A stretch of DNA of 64,000 bases from Bacteroidota bacterium (GTDB taxonomy: Bacteria; Bacteroidota; Ignavibacteria; Ignavibacteriales; Ignavibacteriaceae). The notes under the pieces are model-generated. The model made no database searches, was not told the origin of the DNA, and was given only the letters and a program-made list of their open reading frames with translations. Within the stretch, counting starts at the first letter, position 1, and each line of letters opens with the position of its first letter. Positions 1,206 to 35,548 of the stretch are shown here, in pieces. The stretch covers positions 62,001 to 126,000 of the forward strand of contig JAIUOE010000009.1 of NCBI GenBank assembly GCA_020161395.1. The letters are read 5' to 3'. A program made the translations under genes and the position numbers.

Positions 1206-1290
1206 AATACCCTGGACGGAAATAATCATAATTACCGGGTGAAATATATGCGGGAGGGGTTACTGAAACGATTAATGAAACGGCACATTC

Positions 1291-1324
1291 TGAAAAAAGT
1301 TAATAAATTATCAAACTTTTTTCA
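1291..1324 (-). terminator. AT-rich inverted repeat, possible terminator of the leftward SARP-like operon
   Basis: TGAAAAAAGTT (1291-1301) and AACTTTTTTCA (1314-1324) form a perfect 11-bp stem with a 12-base loop, about 40 bases past the stop codon of the leftward gene ending at 1362. The stem is poor in G+C, so a terminator role is only likely. Confidence 0.45.
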
Positions 1325-1361
1325 TAAAATTATTGATTTTTAAGAGATTTTTGTTCGATTT

Positions 1362-3302
1362 TTAGTTTTTGAGGATCGTTTGAATGGAATGAGGGTATTT
1401 TTTCCCGTAAACAGTCTCATACTCTTTTTGGAAGGTCTGCCATGCCTCTTCCACCAAAGAATGCCTCCCAAGATGGAAAAGAGATCTCAATTTATACTTA
1501 AATGCCTCCTCGTTAGCAGGATCAAAAAGGTCTACGAACCCGGCAGTCTTGTTGCAGGCATGGAAATCTTTTGACTCATAAAGGTATGCACATCTCAAAA
1601 GGAGAATCTCCAATATCCGGTTGGAGAGTGCAAATCTTTCCCTCTCGGCCCAATCTGATTTTATCCCTTCGAGGATGGTTCCGCCCTTAATGATGCCCGT
1701 AAATTTCTCCATGACAACATCAATTGAAATTTTACCTTTTACTTCGAGCAGGCTGAAAAGTGAGGCAAGTTCTGCCATTTCATTGGTGACAGGTGGTGCC
1801 GTTGTCAACAAGACCCTGTCGTCATCTATCTCCAGTTTTACGCTGTCGAGCTTGTTAAGGGTTTTCCGAATTTTGGAAAAGGCAACATTTCTGTTGTTCT
1901 TAAGCTTCTCTTTCGGGATGTCCGACCATATTATCTTCTCGAGTTTTCTGAGCGGCACCGTCGGAGTCTTGCCAAATGTGGAATAGTAGAGGACTGCTGA
2001 AAATATTTCCTGAAGTTTGGGCGTAAGTTCAGACTGGATTTCAGACCCGTCCCTGTCTATCAGCCTCAAACCCCCAAAGAGGGTGATCAGGTTTTTTATC
2101 CCGGGTTTTATGTCATCAGGGAAAAATTCGCCTACTTGGTTCCCTGCTGTAACAGGTTCATTCTTCTTGTGTCTCAACCGGCGAATTATAATAAAGAGGG
2201 GAATCAGCAGGGCGACAATTCCTGCTCCCGTGTATGTTATCCATCCGGGATATTGCCTTCTTCCAGGCTCAGGAATCAGATTGAGCCTCTCCCGGTACTC
2301 TTTTTCGGTCATCGCAGGAAGATAGAGGGAGAAAGTGAGCAGTTTCTTTTCCGACTTTTCCAACGAACGAAGAACAGCATATAGTCTTTTGTAAACGGTA
2401 TCCAGTTTTACTGACACAAGGTCGAGACTGTCCATTTCGACAGGGAGCAGGTTTCCGGTTAAAATTCCGTTGGGCTTTTCTTCAAGTGCAGCTTTTCTGT
2501 TATTGGTATTTAGTCTGTAAAATGAAGTGACATCCTTTAGTCTCGAACTGTCGGGAAGAGGTGTCGGCTGCCAGTTGTAGTAATAGCTCATCTGCCAGCC
2601 GGGGTTCTCTATTTTAATATCAAGATCACCTTCGCTGTCGTATGCAGTACTTCCGGACACTTCGGTGAATTTCCATCTGTGCTTCAATTCGCCGTTGATG
2701 GTTAACTTCAAATCTCTAAGAATGAGATCCATGCAATCGCCGTCACGATACATCGAGCCGAAAATAATTTCAGATGCTGAACCCGGTTTCAGATACCTGC
2801 TCTCGGCTTTCTTCTGTAAACCGTCCAAAATTGCTGTGATACTTCCCCTGTTTTCATCGACTGAGAGTTTAAATGTAAACTTCCGGTGTTCGGTGAATTC
2901 AGCGAGGGGAACAGGAAAAGACAAAAGGACAAATTTGCCGTTTACTCTCAACTGGAGATTCACATTCGAAGAGTCCGGGTGATAGAGATAACGGAGAGCA
3001 AGCTGGTAAGAGCCGTTTTTTATCTCAAAAATGTTTGCGAACACTTTATTATACCAGACGGAAAATCCGAACTCGAGACCGAATTTCTCTCCGGAACCCG
3101 AAACATCCTCTTTCAGAATCGAAAATCTGGTTTTTTGGGAGTTTAAAAGTCGTATCTGTTTCCCGTCAAGACTCTGCAACTTGCTGTGATTGCCGTAAAA
3201 AAAGAGCCCGGGTTCCCGTGTCAGAGATGAATCGGTTGCGATGATCATGAATGAACAGACAACAAGGAAGAAAATGACGGTGACGATTGGTCGGTTATTC
3301 AT
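1362..3302 (-). CDS. Membrane-anchored SARP-like transcriptional regulator with exported LamG-like sensor
   Basis: The product has 646 residues. A signal-anchor (about residues 5-22) is followed by a concanavalin/LamG-like exported domain (about 30-245), a second membrane helix (about 354-374, followed by RRLRHKK) and a cytoplasmic C-terminal part. That part begins with LFGGLRL and contains LKNNRNVAFSKIRKTLNKL, a winged-helix 'trans_reg_C' signature as in SARP regulators, then a helical BTAD-like region to the end. The start at 3302 is preferred because ATG overlaps the upstream stop (ATGAATAA), which implies translational coupling; the longer open frame begins inside the upstream gene. It is the paralogue of the gene before it. 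The ligand and target genes are unknown. Confidence 0.7.
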   Translation of the reverse strand: MNNRPIVTVIFFLVVCSFMIIATDSSLTREPGLFFYGNHSKLQSLDGKQIRLLNSQKTRFSILKEDVSGSGEKFGLEFGFSVWYNKVFANIFEIKNGSYQLALRYLYHPDSSNVNLQLRVNGKFVLLSFPVPLAEFTEHRKFTFKLSVDENRGSITAILDGLQKKAESRYLKPGSASEIIFGSMYRDGDCMDLILRDLKLTINGELKHRWKFTEVSGSTAYDSEGDLDIKIENPGWQMSYYYNWQPTPLPDSSRLKDVTSFYRLNTNNRKAALEEKPNGILTGNLLPVEMDSLDLVSVKLDTVYKRLYAVLRSLEKSEKKLLTFSLYLPAMTEKEYRERLNLIPEPGRRQYPGWITYTGAGIVALLIPLFIIIRRLRHKKNEPVTAGNQVGEFFPDDIKPGIKNLITLFGGLRLIDRDGSEIQSELTPKLQEIFSAVLYYSTFGKTPTVPLRKLEKIIWSDIPKEKLKNNRNVAFSKIRKTLNKLDSVKLEIDDDRVLLTTAPPVTNEMAELASLFSLLEVKGKISIDVVMEKFTGIIKGGTILEGIKSDWAERERFALSNRILEILLLRCAYLYESKDFHACNKTAGFVDLFDPANEEAFKYKLRSLFHLGRHSLVEEAWQTFQKEYETVYGKKYPHSIQTILKN

Positions 3303-5856
3303 TTTTTGACTCGATGAATTCGCCAAAATTTTTACTGAATTCTTCCTTGTAACGGCGTTTGAACCCCCTGCGGAACGAGTTAAACTCTTTTTTCGCTTCG
3401 GGTTCCCTGCCAAGAAGCGTCAGGGACCGGAGCTTGAATTTAAGTACCTCCTCACCGAGGGGATCCTGAATCAGGATAATATCCGATATCTGAATACAGG
3501 TCTCATACTCCTGCCTGGTGTAGAAGGTATCCAGAATCCTCACTGATTTCCTGATGATTGCTGATACCATTTCGGTTCTCACTCCGGTTGCCCAGTCAGA
3601 ATGTATTTCAGCAAGGTACTCGCCTCGCGATACAATCTTAAGAAATCGGTTCAAATCGGGGTCCGACCAAAGGTTCAAATCCCTTCCCAACAGATCATTT
3701 ATCAACTTCTGTTCATTTATCATATCGGGAGGGAAAATAATTTTTACAGAATCAGATTCCGTAACAACTGTCATGTTGCAATTCGCCGTTATGAGAGAAC
3801 GCAATTTGGAGAATGCCACATTTCGGTTGTTTTTTATGTTCTCCGGAGGGATGTCCACCCACAAAATCTGTTCAAGTCTGCTGAAAAGTACCCCGTGCTC
3901 AGGGTTGGGTGTGGAATAATAGAGGATTATTGCAAACAGTTCCGCCAGTTTTGGAGTGAATCCTTCATCAACCCGCTCACCTTTGTCATTTACAATCGTC
4001 AGCCCTCCGAAGAGTGACACATACTTTTCCGCAGGATCATATCCCGATTCAGGAGTGCTTTCAGACTCCGCTCTTTTTTTCTTTCTCATTTTCATCAGGA
4101 AAAAGAAAAAAACAGCGGGAACCCCGATGAAAACAAGGATGATTGCGGAGTATTTGAGAATCCTGTTCCGTCTCTCAATCTTGAATGGAGTTGATGCTTC
4201 CTTCAATTCCATGAGTTCTTTATCAGTGAGTATTGGAGTCCTGATTTTATGAAATACAGGGATGGAATCGTTCTGCGACGCAGCGAAATTCCGGATATAC
4301 ACGATTTGCGTTTCATAATCGATATAAAGCTCATTAGGCACAAGCCCCTCCTTCTGTCCCGGCAGAGTGTCGCCCATGGCAACCATATTACTGTCGGAGA
4401 GGGAAAGATAGTAAATTCTGTTCAACCCTTTTTCATAGACTCTGCAGATTGAGTAAAACGCACTTTGATTTCTGTCAGCCCAGACAGCAAGATCGGTGGT
4501 AATCAGATTTTCGGGATTGTTCCATTTCCAGATTTTTTTCCAGGTCAAAGTCCTCAGGTCGAGTTCAAAGAGATCCCAAAGCGGGTGCTGTGCATCTTCC
4601 TGCCTGCCGGATTCCACTCCGATTCCACCGAATATATAGTAACGGTTTCTGTTAAGATTTTTCAGGATACTAAAGTAAGTCCCGGGGAGTGGTTTTTCTC
4701 CTTTTGTCAGGCATGTGTCCCATTTTTGAGTGTATTTGTCATACTTCAACAGAATATTTTTAAATTTATACCAGCCGTAGCCTCCATATAAATATACGGT
4801 GGTGTCCGTTTGGTCCACAAAGGACTGTCCCCCGTAGTGATGGCCGTCGGGTGTGATTTTGTCCATCTGCATCAAAAACCTGCCCGTTCTAAAATTCAGC
4901 ACACCGGGTTTGTCAGGATAGCCTGAGTGAGCAGAGATGAGGCTGTCGTTTTCCCTGAGCGGGCTTACCATAAAGAACTTAAAGTCATTCATAGGGTAGA
5001 CGATCTTTGTTCGGGTCTTGTTTCTCAGGTTATAAATCCGGATGCCATTTTTATCGATATGGATGTACTCTGGGGAGGGTGCTGCTCTTGGATAGATGTT
5101 GCTTTCCCGGTAGTCAGCAGAAATTGCAGGTTCCCAATAGAAATGTTTGTTTATAAGCCACTCACAGTTTTCTGTTTCGGCGTCCAAACCCCCCTCGCTG
5201 TCGTAAGCCAAACTTCCGGTCAGCTCGGTGAACAGCCAGTGATGCAGCAGATTACCCGCGGAACTGAACTTCAAATCCTTTAAAATCATTGGCAGACAAT
5301 TACCTGAACCGGGCTCTCTTCCAAATCTGAGGTCGAAACCCTCGCTTTTTTTGATCGATTTGAAAGAACCCTGTCTGCTGTTTCCGTCCATTTTCACCAG
5401 AATATTTCCGTTTTGCTCGTTTATTTCCAACAGAAAAGGAAACCAGTGCCCGTCATAAACCATGTCAACAGGCATGGAAAATGAAATACCCGTCTTTTTA
5501 CCATCCAGCAGCAATTCAAAAACAGCCGTTCTGTCGGTTCCTGCTGTTCTGTAGACGAATGAGATATGATACTTTTCTCCTTTAAGTGAAAAAACCTCCC
5601 CGCCGGTAGTGTTTTCCCAAAGGCAGAAGACGAACCCGATCGAGTATTTATCTCCCGGAAAAATCTTTTTCGATTTGGTGATGTGGAACAGTGACCTTTT
5701 TTCTTTTGGTAAAGGAATCCGGTTCAGAGGGGGAGTGGAAGTGAAGTGATAATTCCCTGAAAACTGCAGACCACTGTATCGGGTGGCATCCAAAGTCTGT
5801 GGATGCACCTGAAACAGCAAAACGATGACCAAAAATGCTGTGAAAATGGCCGGCAT
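3295..5856 (-). CDS. Membrane-anchored SARP-like transcriptional regulator with LamG- and Kelch-like sensor
   Basis: The product has 853 residues. A signal peptide (residues 1-20) precedes a LamG-like domain (about 25-240) that shares the 'LAYDSEG' and 'ILKDLKF' motifs with the next gene. A Kelch-like region follows (about 330-520, with VYLYGGYGW and YYIFGGIGV blades). A single membrane helix (about 567-590, ending in MRKKKR) leads to a cytoplasmic winged helix (SLFGGLTIV, IKNNRNVAFSKLR) and a BTAD-like tail. The layout is a one-component transmembrane regulator: exported sensor, one helix, DNA-binding output. It overlaps the following gene by 8 bases. The binding partner on the outside is unknown. 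Confidence 0.7.
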   Translation of the reverse strand: MPAIFTAFLVIVLLFQVHPQTLDATRYSGLQFSGNYHFTSTPPLNRIPLPKEKRSLFHITKSKKIFPGDKYSIGFVFCLWENTTGGEVFSLKGEKYHISFVYRTAGTDRTAVFELLLDGKKTGISFSMPVDMVYDGHWFPFLLEINEQNGNILVKMDGNSRQGSFKSIKKSEGFDLRFGREPGSGNCLPMILKDLKFSSAGNLLHHWLFTELTGSLAYDSEGGLDAETENCEWLINKHFYWEPAISADYRESNIYPRAAPSPEYIHIDKNGIRIYNLRNKTRTKIVYPMNDFKFFMVSPLRENDSLISAHSGYPDKPGVLNFRTGRFLMQMDKITPDGHHYGGQSFVDQTDTTVYLYGGYGWYKFKNILLKYDKYTQKWDTCLTKGEKPLPGTYFSILKNLNRNRYYIFGGIGVESGRQEDAQHPLWDLFELDLRTLTWKKIWKWNNPENLITTDLAVWADRNQSAFYSICRVYEKGLNRIYYLSLSDSNMVAMGDTLPGQKEGLVPNELYIDYETQIVYIRNFAASQNDSIPVFHKIRTPILTDKELMELKEASTPFKIERRNRILKYSAIILVFIGVPAVFFFFLMKMRKKKRAESESTPESGYDPAEKYVSLFGGLTIVNDKGERVDEGFTPKLAELFAIILYYSTPNPEHGVLFSRLEQILWVDIPPENIKNNRNVAFSKLRSLITANCNMTVVTESDSVKIIFPPDMINEQKLINDLLGRDLNLWSDPDLNRFLKIVSRGEYLAEIHSDWATGVRTEMVSAIIRKSVRILDTFYTRQEYETCIQISDIILIQDPLGEEVLKFKLRSLTLLGREPEAKKEFNSFRRGFKRRYKEEFSKNFGEFIESKNE

Positions 5857-6924: not shown

Positions 6925-7923
6925 ATGAAAAAGATCGTTTACTTTTTACCTCTTCTTCTCTTTTTTGCAATATCGTTCGCATCTGATGCACCCGGTGTTC
7001 CTGTAGCTCTTGTCACGGGTACTGAGGGGTCGCCCGTAGTTGTAAACCCCGCAACTCAAACTGAAACAGCACTTCTGCAGGGAGCAACGCTTGAAGAAGG
7101 CGACATTGTTTCTCTCAACTCCGATTCAAAAGTAACAATCTATTTCATGGACGGAGAAATTGTAAATCTGATGCCAAAACAAAAACTTTTTGTGGGGAAG
7201 GAATCGGGGACTTCCAGACTTGACGACGGAAACGGACAGACCTCCGCTCTTCAGTCGGGAATTAACGCCATTTCAAGAAAAAATGTAAATCTAACCGCTA
7301 AAAACGACATCGACAAGGAACTCTCCTCCCCTGCAAGTTTCAGGGCTGAGGGTGTGATTCCAATAGCCCCTGCGGGACTTATCATCTCCGAGAATCCGGA
7401 ATTCACCTGGTATGATTCGGCATATACCGAAGCAACTCCCGTCGAAAAACAGTATGTCCTTCTCGTAATGGACTCAAAAAACAAAGAGGTCTTTCGCGGT
7501 ACGGTAAAAGGGATGACCAACACTCTTGTCAAATATACAATTCCGGGAGTGAGTTTTACTCAAACTGACTCAAAACAAAGATTTAAATGGGATGTGTATC
7601 CTCTCGGAAAAGAACCGAAACTCGGAGCAAGTTATGACCTCGCGGGGGTAATTATTGTTGCCGACAAGAAATTTACGGCTGATGTTAATGCTGCACTCGC
7701 CGATATCAATAAAAATGATAAACTTGACGAGCAAAGCAAACTCTTTCTGAAGGGACTTGTCCTCAAAGATTTCAAATGCTATTCTGATGCAATTGTCACT
7801 CTTGACAAACTCGGAAGTGACAGCAAAGTATCAAAAAACATCCTTGGTCAGAAAGCCTGGTTGTATGCCAGACTTGGAGCGAACGGATCATTTATGGTTA
7901 AAAAATACGCGGCAATACTTTGA
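6925..7923 (+). CDS. Exported FecR-like domain protein
   Basis: The product has 332 residues with a clear signal peptide (MKKIVYFLPLLLFFAISFAS). The following 100 residues resemble a FecR-type beta-domain: a 'valvtgteGsp... l.eGd.v.l...skvtiyfmdG....l.p' pattern with 'LEEGDIVSLNSDSKVTIYF'. A middle beta-rich domain (about 140-250) has 'ISENPEFTWYDS', as seen in exported proteins that describe a property profile, and the last 80 residues look TPR-like (LFLKGLVLKDFKCYSDAIVTL). It is not next to a sigma/anti-sigma pair, so a FecR signalling role is not supported. It converges with the next gene, leaving a 4-base gap. Confidence 0.6.
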   Translation: MKKIVYFLPLLLFFAISFASDAPGVPVALVTGTEGSPVVVNPATQTETALLQGATLEEGDIVSLNSDSKVTIYFMDGEIVNLMPKQKLFVGKESGTSRLDDGNGQTSALQSGINAISRKNVNLTAKNDIDKELSSPASFRAEGVIPIAPAGLIISENPEFTWYDSAYTEATPVEKQYVLLVMDSKNKEVFRGTVKGMTNTLVKYTIPGVSFTQTDSKQRFKWDVYPLGKEPKLGASYDLAGVIIVADKKFTADVNAALADINKNDKLDEQSKLFLKGLVLKDFKCYSDAIVTLDKLGSDSKVSKNILGQKAWLYARLGANGSFMVKKYAAIL

Positions 7924-7927
7924 TTGA

Positions 7928-9502
7928 TTACTTAAGAAGTGTCATCGCCTTGGTCTGACTGAAGAGGACACTGCCCCCCGTCTCTTTTGCGACGGCTCTG
8001 TAGAAATAAACCCCCGAATTTAAGGCGTTGGAAGAGAAGTTAATCTTCCTGACGCCTTTTTCATTTATACCCGAGTAGATTGTTGTGACAAACTCACCCG
8101 GAACGGTAAAAAGTTCGAGTGTCAGCTCACAAGCAACAGGCAGCACCACTTCGAAAACAGTATCGGAATTGAAAGGGTTGGGGTAGTTCTGACTGACCAC
8201 AAAACTGTTCGGCACCAGAACCTCCACACTGTTCACACCTGAATATTCATAAGTCCCGTCGTTATCAACCATTTTTAATCTGTATTCATATCTCGAAGGT
8301 TGAGGTTTTATATCGGTAAAAGAGTAATATTTGACAGAGTTGCTCTGTCCCGCTGCTTCAACTGAGCCGATCTGCATCCACTCATAGTCAGGCTTTCTTC
8401 GTTCAACAAAGAACGCATAAGAGTTAACCTCTGTCGCTGTTCCCCAGAACAGTTTAACATCCCCGTTTTCTTCCCTGATCTGGAAATAATTCAGTTCCAC
8501 AGGGAGGGGGTCTTCTCCAAAGGTGGAAATAATGGCGTTTGCCATCTTGTTCCAGCCGGTGATGTCATCCCTGAGTTTTGTTTTTTCCTGCTCAAGATGG
8601 AGGAATCTACCCGATGCAACCGAAGCGGAAGAGCTGCACGGACTGCTGCTGTTATTCAGATAGCGACCTTGAACATTCGTTAGCCCTGCAAGTTTTGTCC
8701 AGGAGGTGTTTACATGCATAAGCTCATAGGTCAAGGATGTGTCCTGCGCCTCGAGGTTGTTCATAAGTTCGGTCAGCCAGTCGGTTGAAGGAGTGTCTCT
8801 TGTGCCATTACTCATTATAACATATGGATCACCTGTGCCTTTTGTAAAACCGTGCAGTTGAATGGCAATCATGCCCGAAATCTGCTCATCAAAAACTTCT
8901 GTTGACCGCTGAAGAGCGGAAATCAGATTGTGAGGCTGATCCGATTTTCGGAATGCTTCATCGACTCCCGAACAAACTGTCGTTGTTCCGGCACATTCCG
9001 AGGCTGCCAATGAGTTGCATCTGTGCGTCCCTGAAATGTAGAAACCCCTTGCGCCTGCCTGCTTAAAGACATGAATTCCCTGCTTCCCTGTATTATAATC
9101 GTATTTGGGATGTGGTGACTGGATAAAAAGTTTCTGCCGGAGGGGATTTGGATTTAAGACTACAGTGCCCCAATAGTTTGAACCTGTGTCCTTCTTCTCG
9201 AGGAAGTAATATTGCTTGTCGGGGTTGGGTTCCGTATCCATGAAAGAAACCACTTCATAACCTATGGAATCGGCAATTCCATGGGCTGTCGAGTAATTCC
9301 CGGCGAACATCGCATTCAGAGCCCGTTCCCAGATATTCATCTGCTCGGAAGTCGGCTCAACATAAACACCGTGCGGTGTCGTATCCGGAAGCACCGAAAT
9401 CAGATTGTTAAAATAGGTTATCAGATTGTCACTTTTGTTAACCTGTGCAGAGACATTCAGGCACAGCAATACTGCGACAACAAGGGTTGTGGATATTCTC
9501 AT
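7928..9502 (-). CDS. T9SS-sorted secreted protein, possible amidohydrolase/peptidase-like domain
   Basis: The product has 524 residues with a signal peptide (MRISTTLVVAVLLCLNVSAQ). The central domain (about 90-340) has conserved-looking metal-ligand-type segments: SPHPKYD, SGTHRCNS, IQLHGF and a late RFLHLEQE. This arrangement recalls N-formylglutamate amidohydrolase-like or related zinc hydrolases, but I cannot assign it firmly. A fibronectin-like stretch (VELNYFQIREENGDVKLFW) precedes the C-terminal sorting domain (NYPNPFNSDTVFEVVLP ... NSGVYFYRAVA), which marks it for type IX secretion and surface anchoring or release. The catalytic function is unknown. Confidence 0.6.
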   Translation of the reverse strand: MRISTTLVVAVLLCLNVSAQVNKSDNLITYFNNLISVLPDTTPHGVYVEPTSEQMNIWERALNAMFAGNYSTAHGIADSIGYEVVSFMDTEPNPDKQYYFLEKKDTGSNYWGTVVLNPNPLRQKLFIQSPHPKYDYNTGKQGIHVFKQAGARGFYISGTHRCNSLAASECAGTTTVCSGVDEAFRKSDQPHNLISALQRSTEVFDEQISGMIAIQLHGFTKGTGDPYVIMSNGTRDTPSTDWLTELMNNLEAQDTSLTYELMHVNTSWTKLAGLTNVQGRYLNNSSSPCSSSASVASGRFLHLEQEKTKLRDDITGWNKMANAIISTFGEDPLPVELNYFQIREENGDVKLFWGTATEVNSYAFFVERRKPDYEWMQIGSVEAAGQSNSVKYYSFTDIKPQPSRYEYRLKMVDNDGTYEYSGVNSVEVLVPNSFVVSQNYPNPFNSDTVFEVVLPVACELTLELFTVPGEFVTTIYSGINEKGVRKINFSSNALNSGVYFYRAVAKETGGSVLFSQTKAMTLLK

Positions 9503-9660: not shown

Positions 9661-10303
9661 ATTTAAGTTCTTCCACAAAGTCATTTATGCTGTCAAAGAC
9701 AGGGACACCTGCGGCAAGTAGTCGCTCTTTTGTCTGGTGCCCTGAAGCAGTAAGGATGCAGTCGATGCCCATCTCCTTTGCCACTTCATAATCATGCAGC
9801 GTGTCGCCCACCAGCACTGCCGATTTTTTGGCATCACCAAGTCTGTTTATCAGATCGAGTCCGAGTTCCAGCTTGCTGTGTGCATACACATCACCGAGGC
9901 CGTGAATCTCTTCAAAATAGCCCGTCAGACCGTGTTTCTCCACCACATCAAGAAGTTCTTTTTTTACATAAGCAGAAAGGATGTACTGTTTGATGCCGTG
10001 TCCCGCCACTTTTGAAAGCACCGTTTCCACCTGCTCGAAAAGATCCATTTCGTGGCGGCGAACTTCGTAGGTATCAGCCCATTCCTTCCCTATAATTTCG
10101 AAGGGGTGCTTCCCAAAATCAACACCCGCAGCCCTGTAATATTCCTTCACCGGGAAGGTAAATATCTCCCTGTACCTGTCAAATGTGAGGCGGTTGTAGC
10201 TGTTTGCCTCCAAAATGTTGTTTATTATATCAAGACAGACATGAACATCATTAAAAAGTGTCCCGTTCCAGTCCCATATAACATGTGTGTAGTGTTTGAG
10301 CAT
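9659..10303 (-). CDS. HAD-family phosphatase (phosphoglycolate-phosphatase-like)
   Basis: The product is a 214-residue HAD-superfamily hydrolase. Motif I is WDWNGTLF, with the nucleophile Asp and the second Asp replaced by Asn, a variant known in one subfamily. An alpha-helical cap (about residues 18-85) follows, then motif III around KKSAVLVGDTLHDYEVA with the metal-binding Asp. The C-terminal DFVEELK is near normal length. Substrates are probably small phosphomonoesters, but none can be named. Its last bases overlap the low-complexity repeat stretch. The next gene upstream is a nucleotidyltransferase on the same strand, 16 bases away, so co-transcription is likely. Confidence 0.85.
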   Translation of the reverse strand: MLKHYTHVIWDWNGTLFNDVHVCLDIINNILEANSYNRLTFDRYREIFTFPVKEYYRAAGVDFGKHPFEIIGKEWADTYEVRRHEMDLFEQVETVLSKVAGHGIKQYILSAYVKKELLDVVEKHGLTGYFEEIHGLGDVYAHSKLELGLDLINRLGDAKKSAVLVGDTLHDYEVAKEMGIDCILTASGHQTKERLLAAGVPVFDSINDFVEELK

Positions 10304-10319
10304 TAACTTCTATTCTTTT

Positions 10320-10616
10320 TCATACAGTTATGATTGTCTGAAAGATTGAACTTGCCAGTTGAGGTTTTATTGAATCCCGCATGACCAGGTCAACTTTGAT
10401 ACCGAGTGAATCAGAAAGAAAATTTTCCAACTCCATATACTTGAAGAGTCCTGGTGTATTTTCAAATGAAACAAGTAAATCCAAGTCACTTTGTCTGTTT
10501 TCCTCACCTTTCGCATACGAGCCGAAAACCTCAATGCTCTTAACTGCAAAACGGGAAGTAAGCACAGGCTTTAATTCCTGTAGTGTCTGCAATAACTGCT
10601 TGATATCTTTTTTCAT
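10320..10616 (-). CDS. Minimal nucleotidyltransferase (MNT) domain protein
   Basis: This is a single-domain protein of about 98 residues with the polymerase-beta nucleotidyltransferase signature GSYAKGEENRQSDLDLLVSF: GS, then a paired DxD that binds metal. The 'FLSDSLGIKVDLV' tail is typical of MNT proteins, which often pair with HEPN toxins and adenylylate them. No HEPN gene is adjacent here. The longest frame overlaps the GroES-like gene; starts at 10616 or 10622 are both near an AGG in AACAGGTTAT, so the exact start is uncertain. It may belong to the GroES-like/HAD transcription unit. Confidence 0.75.
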   Translation of the reverse strand: MKKDIKQLLQTLQELKPVLTSRFAVKSIEVFGSYAKGEENRQSDLDLLVSFENTPGLFKYMELENFLSDSLGIKVDLVMRDSIKPQLASSIFQTIITV

Positions 10617-10641
10617 AAACATATAACCTGTTTTAATAGAA

Positions 10642-11034
10642 TTACACCATGAAGTCATCACGGATCAGCAGAAGAATTGCTGTCTGTGGTACGATTACGA
10701 GCCTTTCCCGGTCATACTCTATCTCAATGGCATCTTTTTTCAGATAGATTGCCATGTCGCCTTCGCGTGCCTGAAGACCGATGTACCTTGTTGAATCCTT
10801 CTCTTTCCACGGTTCATCGTCACCCGGCATCGCAATAGGGTAGCCGGGACCCGTCTTCAGAACATATCCGCTCTGAACTTTTTCCCGCTCAGTAACGCCC
10901 GGTGGAAGGTAGAGTCCGCCGTGGGTTCTTCCTTCGTCTTCAACAGGCTTCACGAGAACTTTGTCGCCAACCACGATAAATTTCTGCAAGTCTCTCAAGT
11001 ATCCCGCCGATCTTTTAGTTTCTGTTCCATACAT
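10642..11034 (-). CDS. GroES-like co-chaperonin family protein
   Basis: The product has 130 residues and carries the Cpn10 fold pattern: FIVVGDKVLVKPVEDEG, GGLYLPPGVTE, VQSGYVLKTGPG, and a final MAIYLKKDAIEIEYDRERLVIVP. It is longer than usual GroES (about 95 residues) because of an N-terminal extension and an insert (PWKEKDSTRYIG). No groEL gene is nearby, and the mobile-loop region is atypical, so it may be a divergent paralogue rather than the housekeeping co-chaperonin. It lies about 25 bases upstream of the nucleotidyltransferase and about 30 downstream of the endonuclease gene. Confidence 0.8.
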   Translation of the reverse strand: MYGTETKRSAGYLRDLQKFIVVGDKVLVKPVEDEGRTHGGLYLPPGVTEREKVQSGYVLKTGPGYPIAMPGDDEPWKEKDSTRYIGLQAREGDMAIYLKKDAIEIEYDRERLVIVPQTAILLLIRDDFMV

Positions 11035-11065
11035 TTTAGGTTTCTTTCCGAATTCTTATATAGTC

Positions 11066-12718
11066 CTACTTCAGCATCACCAGTTTTTTGGTTGAAGTGT
11101 AGCCATCCGCCTGCATTCTGTAAAAATAAACACCTCCGGGCAGATTTGACGCATCAAATGTCACAAAGTGGTCGCCGGGAGCTCTTTCTTCATTGACCAA
11201 AACTGCAATTTCGTTCCCCGTCACATCATAAACTGCAAGTTTCACAAAAGAAAGTCCACCCGTAACATTCGGTACCGTAAAGCCGATTTTTGTTTCGGGA
11301 TTAAACGGATTTGGATAATTCTGCAGAAGAGCGAAGCTGTGGTTCACTGAAGCCGGTGATTCGTTGTCATCAATTCCTGTCCCAATATCGCTGACTCCCT
11401 TAATCACACCTGAGAAATTCCCGCCGTCACTGTTGATGTCCATCAGTCCCGCAAAGTTTCCTGTGGCGGTTGGCTTGAATGAAACCATTACTTCAACTGC
11501 AGAATTGGCGGCAATCTGAACGGGCAGATTCACAAACCTAAACGCAGGATTGCTGATCGATCCCAATGCAATAGTGAGGTTTTTGTTGCCTGAATTAACA
11601 AGCCACATCGAAACGAAAGCCGAATCGTTCACATACACCGTGTCGAAAACCACACCTTTTGGATAGACATTCAGTTTTGCTGACGGTGTTGCCGAGGTGT
11701 TATTTATAAAACTGTAAACACGGTCAATAAATTCAGGGTGATCGATCAACGGATTTTTCTTCCCCTGGTAAAAAGCGATTGCCGTGTTGCGAAGTCTCTC
11801 TTTTGTATCCACCGTATCGGTCCTGTTCCAGATTCTGAAGGTCGACTCCTGAGCAGCCGTCAGATAGCTCTGATAGTTTGTCGGGTATCTGAGAATAAAA
11901 TAGAGCATCGAGCGGGCTACATTTCCCTTGTGCACATCCCTTGGTTCGAAGACTGTGGTTGCACCATTCAAGCCGAGTTTGCTTCCGCCGCCCGTCCAGC
12001 TCACACCACTTGTAACCACGCCGAAAGGATAATTGCTTCTTGTGTTGTTTGCGGTAGAATTGGTCGGATAGAGATGGTAAATGTCTGATCTCATCGGCTC
12101 CGCCTGCGAAAAGGTTCCCTGGGGCCAGGTATGCTCAGTATCGAAACCCAAACCCTGGGCAATGGTTCTCGTGGCAGCCTTGATTTTAATTCCTGTATAG
12201 ACGCACTCAATTGTGTCGCCGGGTTGTTTATCGATATTTTCAAACATCCTGTCTCTGCCCGAATTGTAGCCGAGTGAAGTGTGGTTGATAACCAGTGCGT
12301 TGAGAGCTGTCTTCAGGTCTGCATCGTATTTGTCGAAAGTGGTGCTTTGGTAGCTGTCGCCTGTGGATCCCGATCCCGTAAGCTTGATGGTGTATGAGGC
12401 GGAGCTGTCATCAGTATAAAAAGCGAGGAATGATCTGTTCGTAACATTCTGTACGGGAGCGTAACTGACCGTTATCAGAGCACTGTCTTTGCCGTTAATC
12501 GTAACCATTGTGTCACCTGTGGAAAACACACCGAGAAGTGATACCGCTCTGACAGTTTTCGCTGAAGTAAAATGATTCACAAGATAAAATGAGTTAACGG
12601 CACTGCTCTTGAGCACCGTAAGAGGGAACACCAGTTCCTTTACAGTGGAACTTATCTGCGCCTGAGATGCATTCACAAGCAAAAAGGAAAACAATGATGC
12701 GAAAAGAATTTTTTTCAA
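11066..12718 (-). CDS. Secreted endonuclease I-family nuclease with T9SS sorting domain
   Basis: The product has 550 residues and a signal peptide (MKKILFASLFSFLLVNASQAQ). An N-terminal beta-rich domain (about 20-125) is followed by the endonuclease I nuclease domain (about 130-345) with the signature FDTEHTWPQG (His-Trp-Pro around the catalytic His) and YHLYPTNSTANNTRSNYPFG. A second beta-sandwich (about 350-450, 'SGNKNLTIALGSISNP') precedes the sorting domain NYPNPFNPETKIGFTVP ... GGVYFYRMQADG. It probably degrades extracellular DNA or RNA for nutrients or matrix remodelling. The start is standard ATG. Confidence 0.85.
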   Translation of the reverse strand: MKKILFASLFSFLLVNASQAQISSTVKELVFPLTVLKSSAVNSFYLVNHFTSAKTVRAVSLLGVFSTGDTMVTINGKDSALITVSYAPVQNVTNRSFLAFYTDDSSASYTIKLTGSGSTGDSYQSTTFDKYDADLKTALNALVINHTSLGYNSGRDRMFENIDKQPGDTIECVYTGIKIKAATRTIAQGLGFDTEHTWPQGTFSQAEPMRSDIYHLYPTNSTANNTRSNYPFGVVTSGVSWTGGGSKLGLNGATTVFEPRDVHKGNVARSMLYFILRYPTNYQSYLTAAQESTFRIWNRTDTVDTKERLRNTAIAFYQGKKNPLIDHPEFIDRVYSFINNTSATPSAKLNVYPKGVVFDTVYVNDSAFVSMWLVNSGNKNLTIALGSISNPAFRFVNLPVQIAANSAVEVMVSFKPTATGNFAGLMDINSDGGNFSGVIKGVSDIGTGIDDNESPASVNHSFALLQNYPNPFNPETKIGFTVPNVTGGLSFVKLAVYDVTGNEIAVLVNEERAPGDHFVTFDASNLPGGVYFYRMQADGYTSTKKLVMLK

Positions 12719-32878: not shown

Positions 32879-33340
32879 AAGGCACCTCGACTGCTTTCTG
32901 TGAAAAAAAGGATTTTACGATTAGAATTTATCCAAAAGTATTATAATTTCTACTCACTATTATAAAATACATTTCGCATGAGTATGATTTATTGAAATTT
33001 ATCACCTTTCTTAGTTATACATTCTTCCTGTGTCGAGGCTTAAAGTAATTCCCCATAAAAAGCGGGAGGCTCATAATTAGTCCCCACCCCGACTCATATG
33101 AATCCCCCCCCCTTAGACTACAACATCCGTGAAAAGTCGTCGAACATTAAATGCGATGTCAAAGAATTTTATTAGCTTAAGAATAGCTTTTTTAGCATTT
33201 TATTGATTCCCAATGGTGTCTTGCTTTTTCAGCAACAAGCTGGACATTGATTTTTATGCAAAATGATTTCTGGAGAATAAAATCTGGAAATTCAGGTTTT
33301 ATTTGATAGAACCACAATTATTTGAAAAGGAAAGAGGCCG
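32879..33340. other. AT-rich intergenic region without features
   Basis: I see no gene, only weak hairpins (for example TTGCT-TTTTC-AGCAA near 33224). An AAAGGAAAGAGG ribosome-binding site at the end serves the DUF3800 gene. Confidence 0.5.
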
Positions 33341-34183
33341 ATGTATTTTTTCTATCTGGATGAGTCGGGGGAGAAAAACCCTGCTGTTAAAAAAGACGAA
33401 CCATTTGTTTTACTTGCGTTAGGTTTGCATGAATATCAATGGAGGAAATTTGAAGCTAAAATTAATGATAAAAAACTTCAATTAATCAAAAGAATTTATG
33501 ACACTGAAGGTGTAAAATTAGAACTGGCAGATGCTGAAATTCGCTCTTCTGATGTTAGAATCCCCAGAAACAGAAGAAATCATTCCTTCTTAAAATATTT
33601 GACAGAAGATGAGTTGAGTCAGCTGATTGATTTGTTTTACAGCCAATTCGAAGAAAACCATATAACAATTTTTTCTGTGGTAGTAGATAAAAGCAAAATA
33701 CAAACTTATCTTGATTTGGAAAAACTGTTTAAGAAGGTTTATGAATTATTGTTGGAGAGGGTAGAAAACTTCTTAAATTCGGAACATCCAAAGCAAAATT
33801 CAATATTTGTTTTGGATAACACAAATAAACAGTTGAACCGAAGTATTGCCATGAAGCATTCCTTTTTTCTTAGAGATGGGACATCTGCTAAAGTTAAAAT
33901 AAAACATGTTATCGAAATTCCTTTCTTTGTAGAGAGCTACTTGTCAAATGGAGTCCAACTTGCAGACCTTTGTGCATACAATGTTTACAGAGCATTTCTG
34001 GATCAAAACAGTTCTTATCCCTTCTTCAAAAAGATTTTACCCTACTATCACAAGAATAAAAACAGGAGAGCTGATAAAATTGAAGGACTAAAAGTATTTC
34101 CGGAAGATAACAGATGGGCTGATTTTATAAAAGAGGTTGAAAAAGAAAGAGCCCTGATTCTCTCGAACCGGGCTCAAAAATGA
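33341..34183 (+). CDS. DUF3800 domain protein
   Basis: The product has 280 residues. The N-terminal MYFFYLDESGE (Asp/Glu) and the late VESYLSNGVQLADLCAYNVYR (with the VQLADLCAY part) are DUF3800 signatures. The acidic residues at both ends suggest a metal-dependent nuclease-like fold, but the function of the family is not established. The base composition is more AT-rich than the neighbours', suggesting recent acquisition. The stop codon TGA is followed at once by a compact structured RNA candidate, and the last codons themselves lie in a hairpin (GAGCCC/GGGCTC). Confidence 0.85.
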   Translation: MYFFYLDESGEKNPAVKKDEPFVLLALGLHEYQWRKFEAKINDKKLQLIKRIYDTEGVKLELADAEIRSSDVRIPRNRRNHSFLKYLTEDELSQLIDLFYSQFEENHITIFSVVVDKSKIQTYLDLEKLFKKVYELLLERVENFLNSEHPKQNSIFVLDNTNKQLNRSIAMKHSFFLRDGTSAKVKIKHVIEIPFFVESYLSNGVQLADLCAYNVYRAFLDQNSSYPFFKKILPYYHKNKNRRADKIEGLKVFPEDNRWADFIKEVEKERALILSNRAQK

Positions 34184-34233
34184 CGTCCAGCCCCCAATGA
34201 AGGGGTATCGAGCCTGCTCGGAGGCACTGGACG
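34149..34233 (+). ncRNA. Candidate structured RNA at the 3' end of the DUF3800 gene
   Basis: P1 is CGTCCAG (34184-34190) with CTGGACG (34227-34233), a perfect 7-bp stem. It encloses hairpin CCCC/GGGG (34192-34195 with 34202-34205, loop AATGAA) and hairpin GCCT/AGGC (34212-34215 with 34222-34225, loop GCTCGG), giving a three-way junction. A preceding 6-bp hairpin GAGCCC/GGGCTC (34149-34175) lies in the last codons. There is no T-tail, so a plain terminator does not explain it. RNA motifs next to DUF3800 genes have been reported; membership of this one is unproven. Confidence 0.55.
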
Positions 34234-34660
34234 ATAAAAGCATTTCAAATATACTAATTTTTTCAAATCAATTCAACATAATAATTCAGTTTTCCACGCG
34301 GAATGACAATACGAAGAGTTAAGTGGTTTTTCTATCTGCTTCCTTTCAAAAGTAATCATGACAATTACTTCCCTCACTAAAACGCCATTTCACCCTTTGG
34401 AATTAATTCTTGGAATTCTTCTCAGCGCAAATCTCCCCAGTTGATATCTTCGTTGTATCTCACAGATATTCTCATTCCCCTCTGCCCAAAGCTTCCCAAT
34501 CTTTGTGTACTGAGACCGCTGAGGCTGGTCTTCATGTCTGAGTGTTTCCTATAAAATAAGTTCAGGAATCAATCTACACTCGTTTGTGCAAAAAACCTGT
34601 TGCTTGAAAATAGAAAAACCCTTATTTTAATAATGAAAGTTTTTATAATTTGGAGAGACT
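34234..34660. other. Intergenic region with no recognised gene
   Basis: I see no gene or structure here beyond an unclear minus-strand open frame of about 50 residues without a start codon. A ribosome-binding site (GGAGAGACT) for etfB is at the end. Confidence 0.4.
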
Positions 34661-35548
34661 GTGTTTAAATCCATTGTTTTAGTGAAGCAGGTTCCCGATA
34701 CCGCAAATATCTCGGGAAGTGTAATGAAAGAGGACGGAACCGTCAACCGTTCGAAGCTCCCTGCAATATTTAACAACGAAGACAGGGTAGCCATCGAGTT
34801 TGCCCTTCGTATTAAAGAAAAATTCGGCGGGACCGTTACTGCTATCACCATGGGACCGCAGAGAGCGTCTGATATACTAAGAGAATGCCTCTATATGGGT
34901 GCCGATTCTGTTTATCTGATAAGTGACAGAAAATTCGCCGGTGCTGATACACTCGCCACATCTTATGTGCTTAGCGAGGCAATAAAAAAGATCGGCAGTT
35001 TCGATTTTATTTTTGCCGGAAGACAGGCGATTGATGGCGACACCGCTCAGGTTGGTCCTCAGACAGCCGAAAAACTCAATCTCCCGCAGGTTACTTATGT
35101 GGAAGAAATTCTTGAAGTTTCGAATACCCACGCAAAGATTAAAAGAAAAATAGACGGTGGTTACGAAATCGTAAGGGCTAAACTTCCCGTTTTGCTGACA
35201 GTTCTTAAGGATGCCGCCGAACCAAGACCATTCAGTGCAAAAAGAGTGATGGCATACAAGGGAGCAAAATCCCTGATGGATCTCGAAAAAATGACAGAGG
35301 GAAACAGTCTTCTCTACACAGATAAACTCCAGCATGAATACGAAGAAAAGAATCTCTTCATCCCCACACTTACAATGGATGAACTGGGGCTCGACCCCGA
35401 ACGCTGCGGCATCAAAGGCTCGCCAACAAAAGTTCACAAAGTGGATTCTGTGGTTCTTGGCGGTGGAAACCACATCAGAGTGGAGCCGACAAAAGAAGGG
35501 CTCGAGAAGCTCGTAGATCAACTTTTAGCCGATCACATTTTTGGATAA
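34661..35548 (+). CDS. etfB: Electron transfer flavoprotein subunit beta
   Basis: The product has 295 residues, with GTG as start codon and a GGAGAG site 6 bases upstream. EtfB, with EtfA, carries electrons from acyl-CoA dehydrogenases to the quinone pool. The family signatures are VLVKQVPDTA at the N-terminus, NEDRVAIEFALRIKE, VTAITMGPQRA, the LRECLYMGADSVYLISD segment and FAGRQAIDGDTAQVGPQ. It is the first gene of an operon with etfA and an acyl-CoA dehydrogenase, 4 bases before the etfA ATG. Confidence 0.95.
   Translation: MFKSIVLVKQVPDTANISGSVMKEDGTVNRSKLPAIFNNEDRVAIEFALRIKEKFGGTVTAITMGPQRASDILRECLYMGADSVYLISDRKFAGADTLATSYVLSEAIKKIGSFDFIFAGRQAIDGDTAQVGPQTAEKLNLPQVTYVEEILEVSNTHAKIKRKIDGGYEIVRAKLPVLLTVLKDAAEPRPFSAKRVMAYKGAKSLMDLEKMTEGNSLLYTDKLQHEYEEKNLFIPTLTMDELGLDPERCGIKGSPTKVHKVDSVVLGGGNHIRVEPTKEGLEKLVDQLLADHIFG

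Follow-up and report, generated by a model that had tools for sequence, protein, structure and literature searches.

Here, we show by comparative sequence analysis that a covarying RNA element goes with one clade of DUF3800 genes, both within the host family and in two remote lineages, and that it also occurs by itself in phages. The element lies in the window, by which we mean the whole 64,000-nt stretch of Ignavibacteriaceae DNA that was analyzed, at the 3′ end of a gene that a sequence-only reading had named DUF3800. Pfam bears out that name, the 280-aa protein matching PF12686 at 61.6 bits against a gathering cut-off of 21. The same reading had described a sense-strand, tail-less structured RNA at the stop codon. 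The structure is real, conserved, and covarying, and the strand given to it was probably wrong: a minus-strand sRNA gene convergent with DUF3800 is favored by hairpins that resemble terminators, by promoter-like sites, and by some of the phage contexts. The features of the locus, in window coordinates, are as follows.

34184–34233, minus strand: structured RNA core, a three-way junction (fold; covariance model R1 built without the window; 17-member covariation)
34184–34190/34227–34233, 34192–34195/34202–34205, and 34212–34215/34222–34225, minus strand: helices P1, P2, and P3, respectively
34149–34175, minus strand: terminator-like hairpin of the putative sRNA, within the last DUF3800 codons (fold; also in L022; one-mismatch scan)
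34140–34148, minus strand: T-tract TTTCTTTTT, after that hairpin (sequence)
34248–34276, minus strand: promoter-like site TTGAAT-17-TATATT, expected start ~34241 (9/12 matches; weak alone)
33341–34183, plus strand: DUF3800 gene, 280 aa, predicted RNase H2-like from the model of a relative (PF12686, E 1.8e-16)
32939–34585, no strand: segment with gene and RNA, missing from the close relative G184, which has ~64 bp there (blastn; GC content)

A covarying three-way junction beside one DUF3800 clade and in phages

On the plus strand, the TGA stop of the DUF3800 gene occupies 34181–34183, and a perfect 7-bp stem begins at the very next base. It closes a 50-nt junction with two inner hairpins, each of 4 bp with a six-base loop (34192–34205 and 34212–34225). 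The geometry given by the sequence-only reading is thus exact on the plus strand, and the separate hairpin said to overlap the last DUF3800 codons is also there. The 85-nt fold is better than 200/200 shuffles on either strand (z −3.63 plus, −3.66 minus); the 51-nt core alone gives z −2.81 on the plus strand (3/200 shuffles as good) and −3.01 on the minus strand (2/200 as good).

A protein scan of genome contigs yielded two relatives, one in a Deltaproteobacteria MAG (L001, 40% identity) and one in a Dehalococcoidia MAG (L002, 37%), each with a similar RNA element at or just past the DUF3800 stop codon; the element overlaps the stop in L001 and begins after a gap beyond it in L002. RNA core patterns were then sought in viral contigs, the route by which the phage copies were found; the window-type P2 pattern gave no match in those contigs. 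R1, a covariance model of L001, L002, L005, and L008 with the window left out, scores the window element at 31.0 bits (E 4.8e-7 over 195,579 bases). Because a model built without the window still finds it, the element is more than chance. Over 97 relatives, R1 matched in three genomes, and the best match (G401, locus L022) directly follows a DUF3800 gene that shares 69% identity with the window gene, so that a DUF3800 gene was re-found from the RNA alone. Under the strict filters of that 97-genome search R1 missed the window copy, which a second model that includes the window, R2, recovered. R2 found the RNA in five of 294 genomes of the class of L002 (one strong, four weak) and in one of 282 genomes at E ≤ 1e-5.

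The final set comprises 17 distinct sequences. Four are bacterial, from the host, the family relative, and the two MAGs, each at the 3′ end of a gene of one DUF3800 clade; the other 13 are in phage contigs. Several of the phage sequences are kin (L063 and L064 are close relatives, as are L010, L013, and L072), and L009, L012, L067, L071, and L073 were left out as repeat phage copies. That a structured RNA is tied to the DUF3800 gene, as had been proposed, is upheld by its recurrence next to the gene in all four bacterial copies and by its covariation in homologues. No R2 match was found near other, distant DUF3800 genes (L049, L050, L052–L057, and L062), which ties the RNA to one clade only. 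The window RNA is single-copy, as it is per genome overall except for a weak second match in G453 (18.9 bits, ignored). G453, the genome of L002, has three DUF3800 genes (C15:10088–10696, C77:2881–3540, and C120:46079–46624), and the C77 gene alone has this RNA. In L007 and L008, ~40 nt on the 5′ side of the RNA (minus frame) are alike, so that some members may have a longer RNA on that side.

Other candidates were set aside. The R1 matches in G412 and G416 (23.1 and 22.3 bits) were dropped as chance and the R2 matches in G608, G666, G700, and G722 (24.9–28.1 bits) were dropped as well, all six with no DUF3800 relative by tblastn in the flanks retrieved; the G666 match (L043) has all three helices, and calling it chance is a judgement. 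L046 lacks P1, and the pattern matches L011, L014–L017, L019–L021, L065, L068–L070, L075–L077, and L079 by eye lack P1 and the flanking anchors. E-values among these dropped sequences were 0.00085 (L020) and 0.011 (L011) with R1, and 0.00027 (L068), 0.0038 (L076), and 0.02 (L075) with R2. A hairpin followed by a T-run, with a core-like stretch inside, is present at L075:5569–5601 and L076:6276–6308 and was judged a chance or remote resemblance. Four Blast leads (H6, H7, H18, and H19; L080–L083) re-scored at 15.9 bits or less and are without P3.

Covariation in homologues, named by the sequence-only reading as a test of the element, is present. In the model-fitted alignment of the 17 sequences, 93.5% of 217 cells are paired. 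Both sides have changed in 8 of 13 pairs, a count reached by 4/500 shuffles, and 41 cells carry both-side changes (0/500 shuffles as many). The covariation score is 0.492 versus 0.150 in shuffles (0/500 as high), and slid versions of the structure score at most 0.118; the 17 further pair types were reached by 29/500 shuffles. Because that alignment had been fitted to the structure, the P1 arms were re-taken by position: a sequence anchor fixed the 5′ arm, and the point at which the model match ends fixed the 3′ arm. Arms taken in this way form a mean of 5.65 of 6 Watson–Crick pairs within sequences versus 3.46 across sequences; 0/20,000 permutations were as high, and the result is the same with only the 13 distinct arm pairs. 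P2 varies in step (TGG/CCA, GGG/CCC, CCCC/GGGG), as does P3 (GCC/GGC, GCT/AGC).

Strand, putative promoter, and putative terminator

Transcription is very probably from the minus strand. The element would be a ~100-nt sRNA gene convergent with DUF3800, a reading that is supported, not proven, and that draws on the terminator-like hairpin with its T-tract and on the promoter-like site just upstream on the minus strand. Such a gene would run from that site (~34276–34248) through the 50-nt three-way junction and a short linker to the terminator-like hairpin in the 3′ end of DUF3800; the minus-strand consensus of the core is P1-U-P3(GCC..GGC)-UYGAUA-P2-G-P1′.

The earlier statement that the element has no T-tail holds for the plus strand and fails for the minus strand, on which the hairpin at 34149–34175 runs into UUUCUUUUU. 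In L022 the hairpin and T-tract are the same as in the window, the phage copy L018 has a perfect terminator, and L002 has, by eye, a strong hairpin with four T. Our own scan, which permits one mismatch, found a terminator-like hairpin within 30 nt on the minus frame in 3 of 17 sequences (window, L022, and L018) and two more beyond 50 nt (L066 and L072), and on the plus frame found such a hairpin with a T-tract in 0/17. A stricter scan of 33300–34700 returned none on either strand, which counts against a minus-strand sRNA and is explained by that scan requiring an unbroken stem.

In the minus-frame reading, the window, L001, L002, and L066 each have a promoter-like site with 9/12 matches directly upstream of the RNA; sites as good arise in a fraction of 0.205, 0.005, 0.015, and 0.020 of mononucleotide shuffles, respectively, and the window region holds seven promoter-like sites versus 4.1 expected. 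In the other 13 of the 17 sequences, nothing notable as a promoter precedes the RNA on the minus frame, a point against the minus-strand gene. On the plus frame there is one notable match, in L002 (8/12; 0.015 of shuffles). Wobble pairs, five of which fit the minus strand and three the plus strand, do not settle the strand. Phage ORF directions were judged by eye from ORF lists, with ORFs overlapping the RNA left out. The flanking ORFs run with the minus frame on both sides in L005, L006, L010, L013, L072, and L074, with the minus frame on one side in L018, and in mixed directions in L007 and L008; a neighboring ORF on the plus frame in L063, L064, L066, and L078 speaks against minus-strand transcription. 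On the minus-frame reading, the L066 RNA (7369–7423) faces a 320-aa ORF (7387–8349, minus strand) and overlaps its 3′ end, as in the window; that ORF has no PHROG match.

The DUF3800 protein, its genomic setting, and the phage copies

A predicted DUF3800 domain is reported to have an RNase H fold with a rearranged catalytic site, according to an excerpt of PMC10910872. An RNase H2-like fold for the protein studied here is supported by our models with low confidence. For the model of the L001 relative (mean pLDDT 64.6), Foldseek ranks 1–12 are all RNase HII/HIII/H2 (E 0.007–0.2), and VIA-align ranks 1–17 are RNase HII/HIII/H2 at Z 7.4–9.8, of which values below 8 can reflect a common arrangement. 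The window protein model (mean pLDDT 63.5) has RNase HII at Foldseek ranks 1–3 (E 0.06–0.12). At a mean pLDDT of 63–65, neither model had a Foldseek match at E ≤ 0.001, and the protein alignment, searched by sequence against the PDB, gave no match. Acidic residues that do not vary among the three proteins, D7, E8, E66, D116, D159, and D209 among them, may be catalytic. In the window protein, Pfam finds no domain other than DUF3800, hence no TnpB or IscB domain, and the uncharacterized phage family phrog_38260 of PHROGs matches all three proteins. None of the three (0/3) matched a PADLOC model, which weighs against a defense pair.

Gene and RNA appear to form a mobile unit. The 1.65-kb segment that holds them has a GC content of 35.2% versus 43.2% and 45.3% in its flanks, and it is absent from G184 even though the ETF protein there is 99% identical. 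Homology between the window and L030 is limited to 33340–34239, from the start codon through the end of the RNA, and the neighbors of L030, a macro-domain gene and a hydrolase, differ from those of the window. The DUF3800 clade is rare, occurring in 4/294 class genomes at E ≤ 1e-15 (two of these distant), in 1/282 in the phylum of L001, and in 1/395 in a phylum sample at E ≤ 1e-10. In L001, DUF3800 and the RNA lie directly before an HsdR-type gene (1254–4064, plus strand; HSDR_N, E 1.1e-26), a defense-type neighbor. The end of a 91-aa ORF before DUF3800 in L001, which has no Pfam match, presumably resembles an HsdS tail. Insertion of a nuclease gene into an hsd region is not without precedent, to judge from the title of a reference listed in PMC12409349.

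No DUF3800 gene accompanies the phage copies as far as searched. PF12686 is absent from the seven phage records tested and tblastn of three DUF3800 proteins against the phage loci gave nothing at E ≤ 0.01, all of these records being fragments. Across the 124,331 bases of the 13 phage loci, ARAGORN found four tRNA genes, whose distances from the RNA are 4, 4, 190, and 274 nt. When placed at random, all four fell within 300 nt in 0/20,000 trials, with about three independent cases, L013 and L072 being related. In these two, the minus-frame RNA is followed after 4 nt by tRNA-Trp on its own strand; in L007 the tRNA is on the other strand. ARAGORN found no tRNA in the window and, with default settings, called none over the element in any of 16 loci; relaxing the threshold gave low-scoring matches that overlap the element in L074 and L078. 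P1 is followed by ACCA in 5/17 sequences (L005, L010, L013, L072, and L074) and by TCA in 7/17 (window, L022, L001, L002, L006, L007, and L008), and the remaining 5/17 fit neither. The position of the RNA in phages varies, between head genes, near an integrase, or elsewhere. In L078 the RNA (9827–9879) lies between an integrase ORF (10116–11390) and a stretch resembling a tRNA 3′-end, as at an attachment site.

Possible roles and relation to known systems

The reading that we favor, by analogy, is that gene and RNA make up a mobile protein–RNA pair. The RNA would bind the nuclease in trans and hold it in check, much as happens in type III toxin–antitoxin systems or AbiF/RCd22. If the RNA were lost during infection, the nuclease would be set free, and the phage copies, some of which lie beside tRNA genes, would act in trans as mimics to prevent its release. 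That the window RNA is an antitoxin restraining an RNase H2-like nuclease is possible, and we propose it tentatively. The broader hypothesis of a toxin–antitoxin or defense role gains from the RNase H2-like model, the HsdR-type neighbor in L001, the standalone phage copies, and published precedents. Against it, what the phage copies do may have nothing to do with DUF3800. A still wider proposal, which we regard as rather unlikely, is a new class of protein–RNA abortive-infection module that pairs an RNase H2-like nuclease with a convergent, tRNA-sized RNA antitoxin. Standalone copies in unrelated phages, several near tRNA genes, would then be counter-defense mimics, and the DUF3800-VI RNA would mark a sister module with its RNA moved upstream. 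The DUF3800 RNAs would form one antitoxin superfamily with an acceptor-like stem, often followed by ACCA, ACCG, or TCA.

The RNA could instead be a working part of the nuclease, as guide, scaffold, or activating cofactor, with DUF3800 and RNA together an effector ribonucleoprotein. We consider this unlikely. The strict adjacency of RNA and gene in 4/4 bacterial copies and the RNase H2-like model fit it, and DUF3800 proteins in some CRISPR loci have been proposed, in parts of PMC10910872 and PMC12669027, to act in interference or crRNA handling. However, no conserved guide-like stretch follows the RNA, the window–L030 homology ending at 34239, and an effector does not account for phage copies without the gene as far as searched. 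The phage RNA could also have come first, as a small RNA with a role of its own near tRNA genes, and bacteria would then carry DUF3800 with a copy of that RNA so as to sense or cleave the phage form during infection. We find this quite unlikely. In its favor, 13 of the 17 copies are in phage contigs, none of the four phage-locus tRNA genes is more than 300 nt away, and two copies are 4 nt ahead of tRNA-Trp in the minus frame; but the core-pattern search of a viral collection biases the share of phage copies, the RNA positions vary, and no phage function is known.

It seems improbable that the element is, as the sequence-only reading had it, a plus-strand 3′-UTR element acting in the stability or termination of the DUF3800 mRNA. 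Its start right past the stop in the window, its overlap with the stop in L001, and three wobble pairs would suit such an element. The gap beyond the stop in L002, the lack of a plus-frame T-tract in 17 of 17 sequences, and standalone phage copies that need no such gene all argue otherwise. A conserved core with freely varying stems is a pattern seen in small ribozymes and ligand-binding RNAs, and the short three-way junction, with its conserved core and with P1 and P3 free to vary, shares it. An RNA of that kind, linked to DUF3800 only indirectly, is nonetheless very improbable given no Rfam match where searched and the absence of one fixed gene type behind the element.

The RNA is of a kind already known, DUF3800-associated structured RNAs, and its family falls outside Rfam 15 matches where searched. 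The window gave 0 matches at gathering and none at E ≤ 5 in 33000–34700; L001 and L002 gave none at E ≤ 3, L005, L006, L008, and L010 none at E ≤ 10, and L007 none at the gathering score. These scans covered the window, L001, L002, L005–L008, and L010. The element may be identical to a published motif absent from Rfam. Weinberg 2017 is reportedly the main paper on DUF3800 RNA motifs, and motifs named I and IX appear in an excerpt of PMC11701678. The portions of the DUF3800 literature examined give no tested function for the protein. DUF3800 has been linked to unexplained RNAs, and the present locus combines a compact gene–RNA pair, a close relative in which the site is empty, covariation, and phage copies that stand free of the gene, which makes the function of DUF3800 RNAs testable with two small parts.

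The nearest likeness is to DUF3800-VI (RF02915). A protein search of plasmids returned four records at 24–26% identity, all with DUF3800-VI directly upstream of the gene (29.8–44.7 bits; two of four above the gathering score of 35) and in the order RNA, terminator-like hairpin (by eye), gene; L056, the one phage record matched by the protein search, has no DUF3800-VI match. Both RNAs are three-way junctions, DUF3800-VI being ~52 nt, beside a DUF3800 gene and followed by a terminator-like hairpin; after the closing stem come ACCA/ACCG in DUF3800-VI and ACCA in some members of the present family. They differ in core sequence and in placement, DUF3800-VI being upstream and co-directional and the window RNA 3′ and convergent.

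TnpB and IscB are encoded by genes of RNase H-type fold with an RNA overlapping the 3′ end. The window locus likewise pairs a gene of predicted RNase H-type fold with an RNA at its 3′ end, but the protein has PF12686 only and the RNA reads best on the opposite strand. According to the available part of PMC12373285, RCd22 RNA of C. difficile (abiF RNA motif, RF03085) neutralizes the toxic AbiF protein by binding, in cis and in trans, and that gene-associated structured RNA with its protein resembles the window pair. There, however, an Abi_2 protein is preceded by two RNA motifs with read-through, whereas the window has DUF3800 and one convergent RNA. Type III antitoxins are described in the same excerpt as upstream repeats; the window RNA is single-copy, downstream, and convergent, with no upstream repeats, which tells against an antitoxin of that type. 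ToxIN also differs in its tandem RNA repeats and probably in its ToxN-type protein, the DUF3800 models resembling RNase H2 at low confidence, and the mimicry step for the window RNA is one that we infer only. As a precedent for a phage-borne RNA copy silencing a bacterial protein–RNA system, phage PhiTE produced RNAs that mimic the antitoxin ToxI (pseudo-ToxI), as reported in an excerpt of PMC3475682. Should the present RNA serve phages as a mimic, it would add a further example of pseudo-ToxI-type RNA mimicry.
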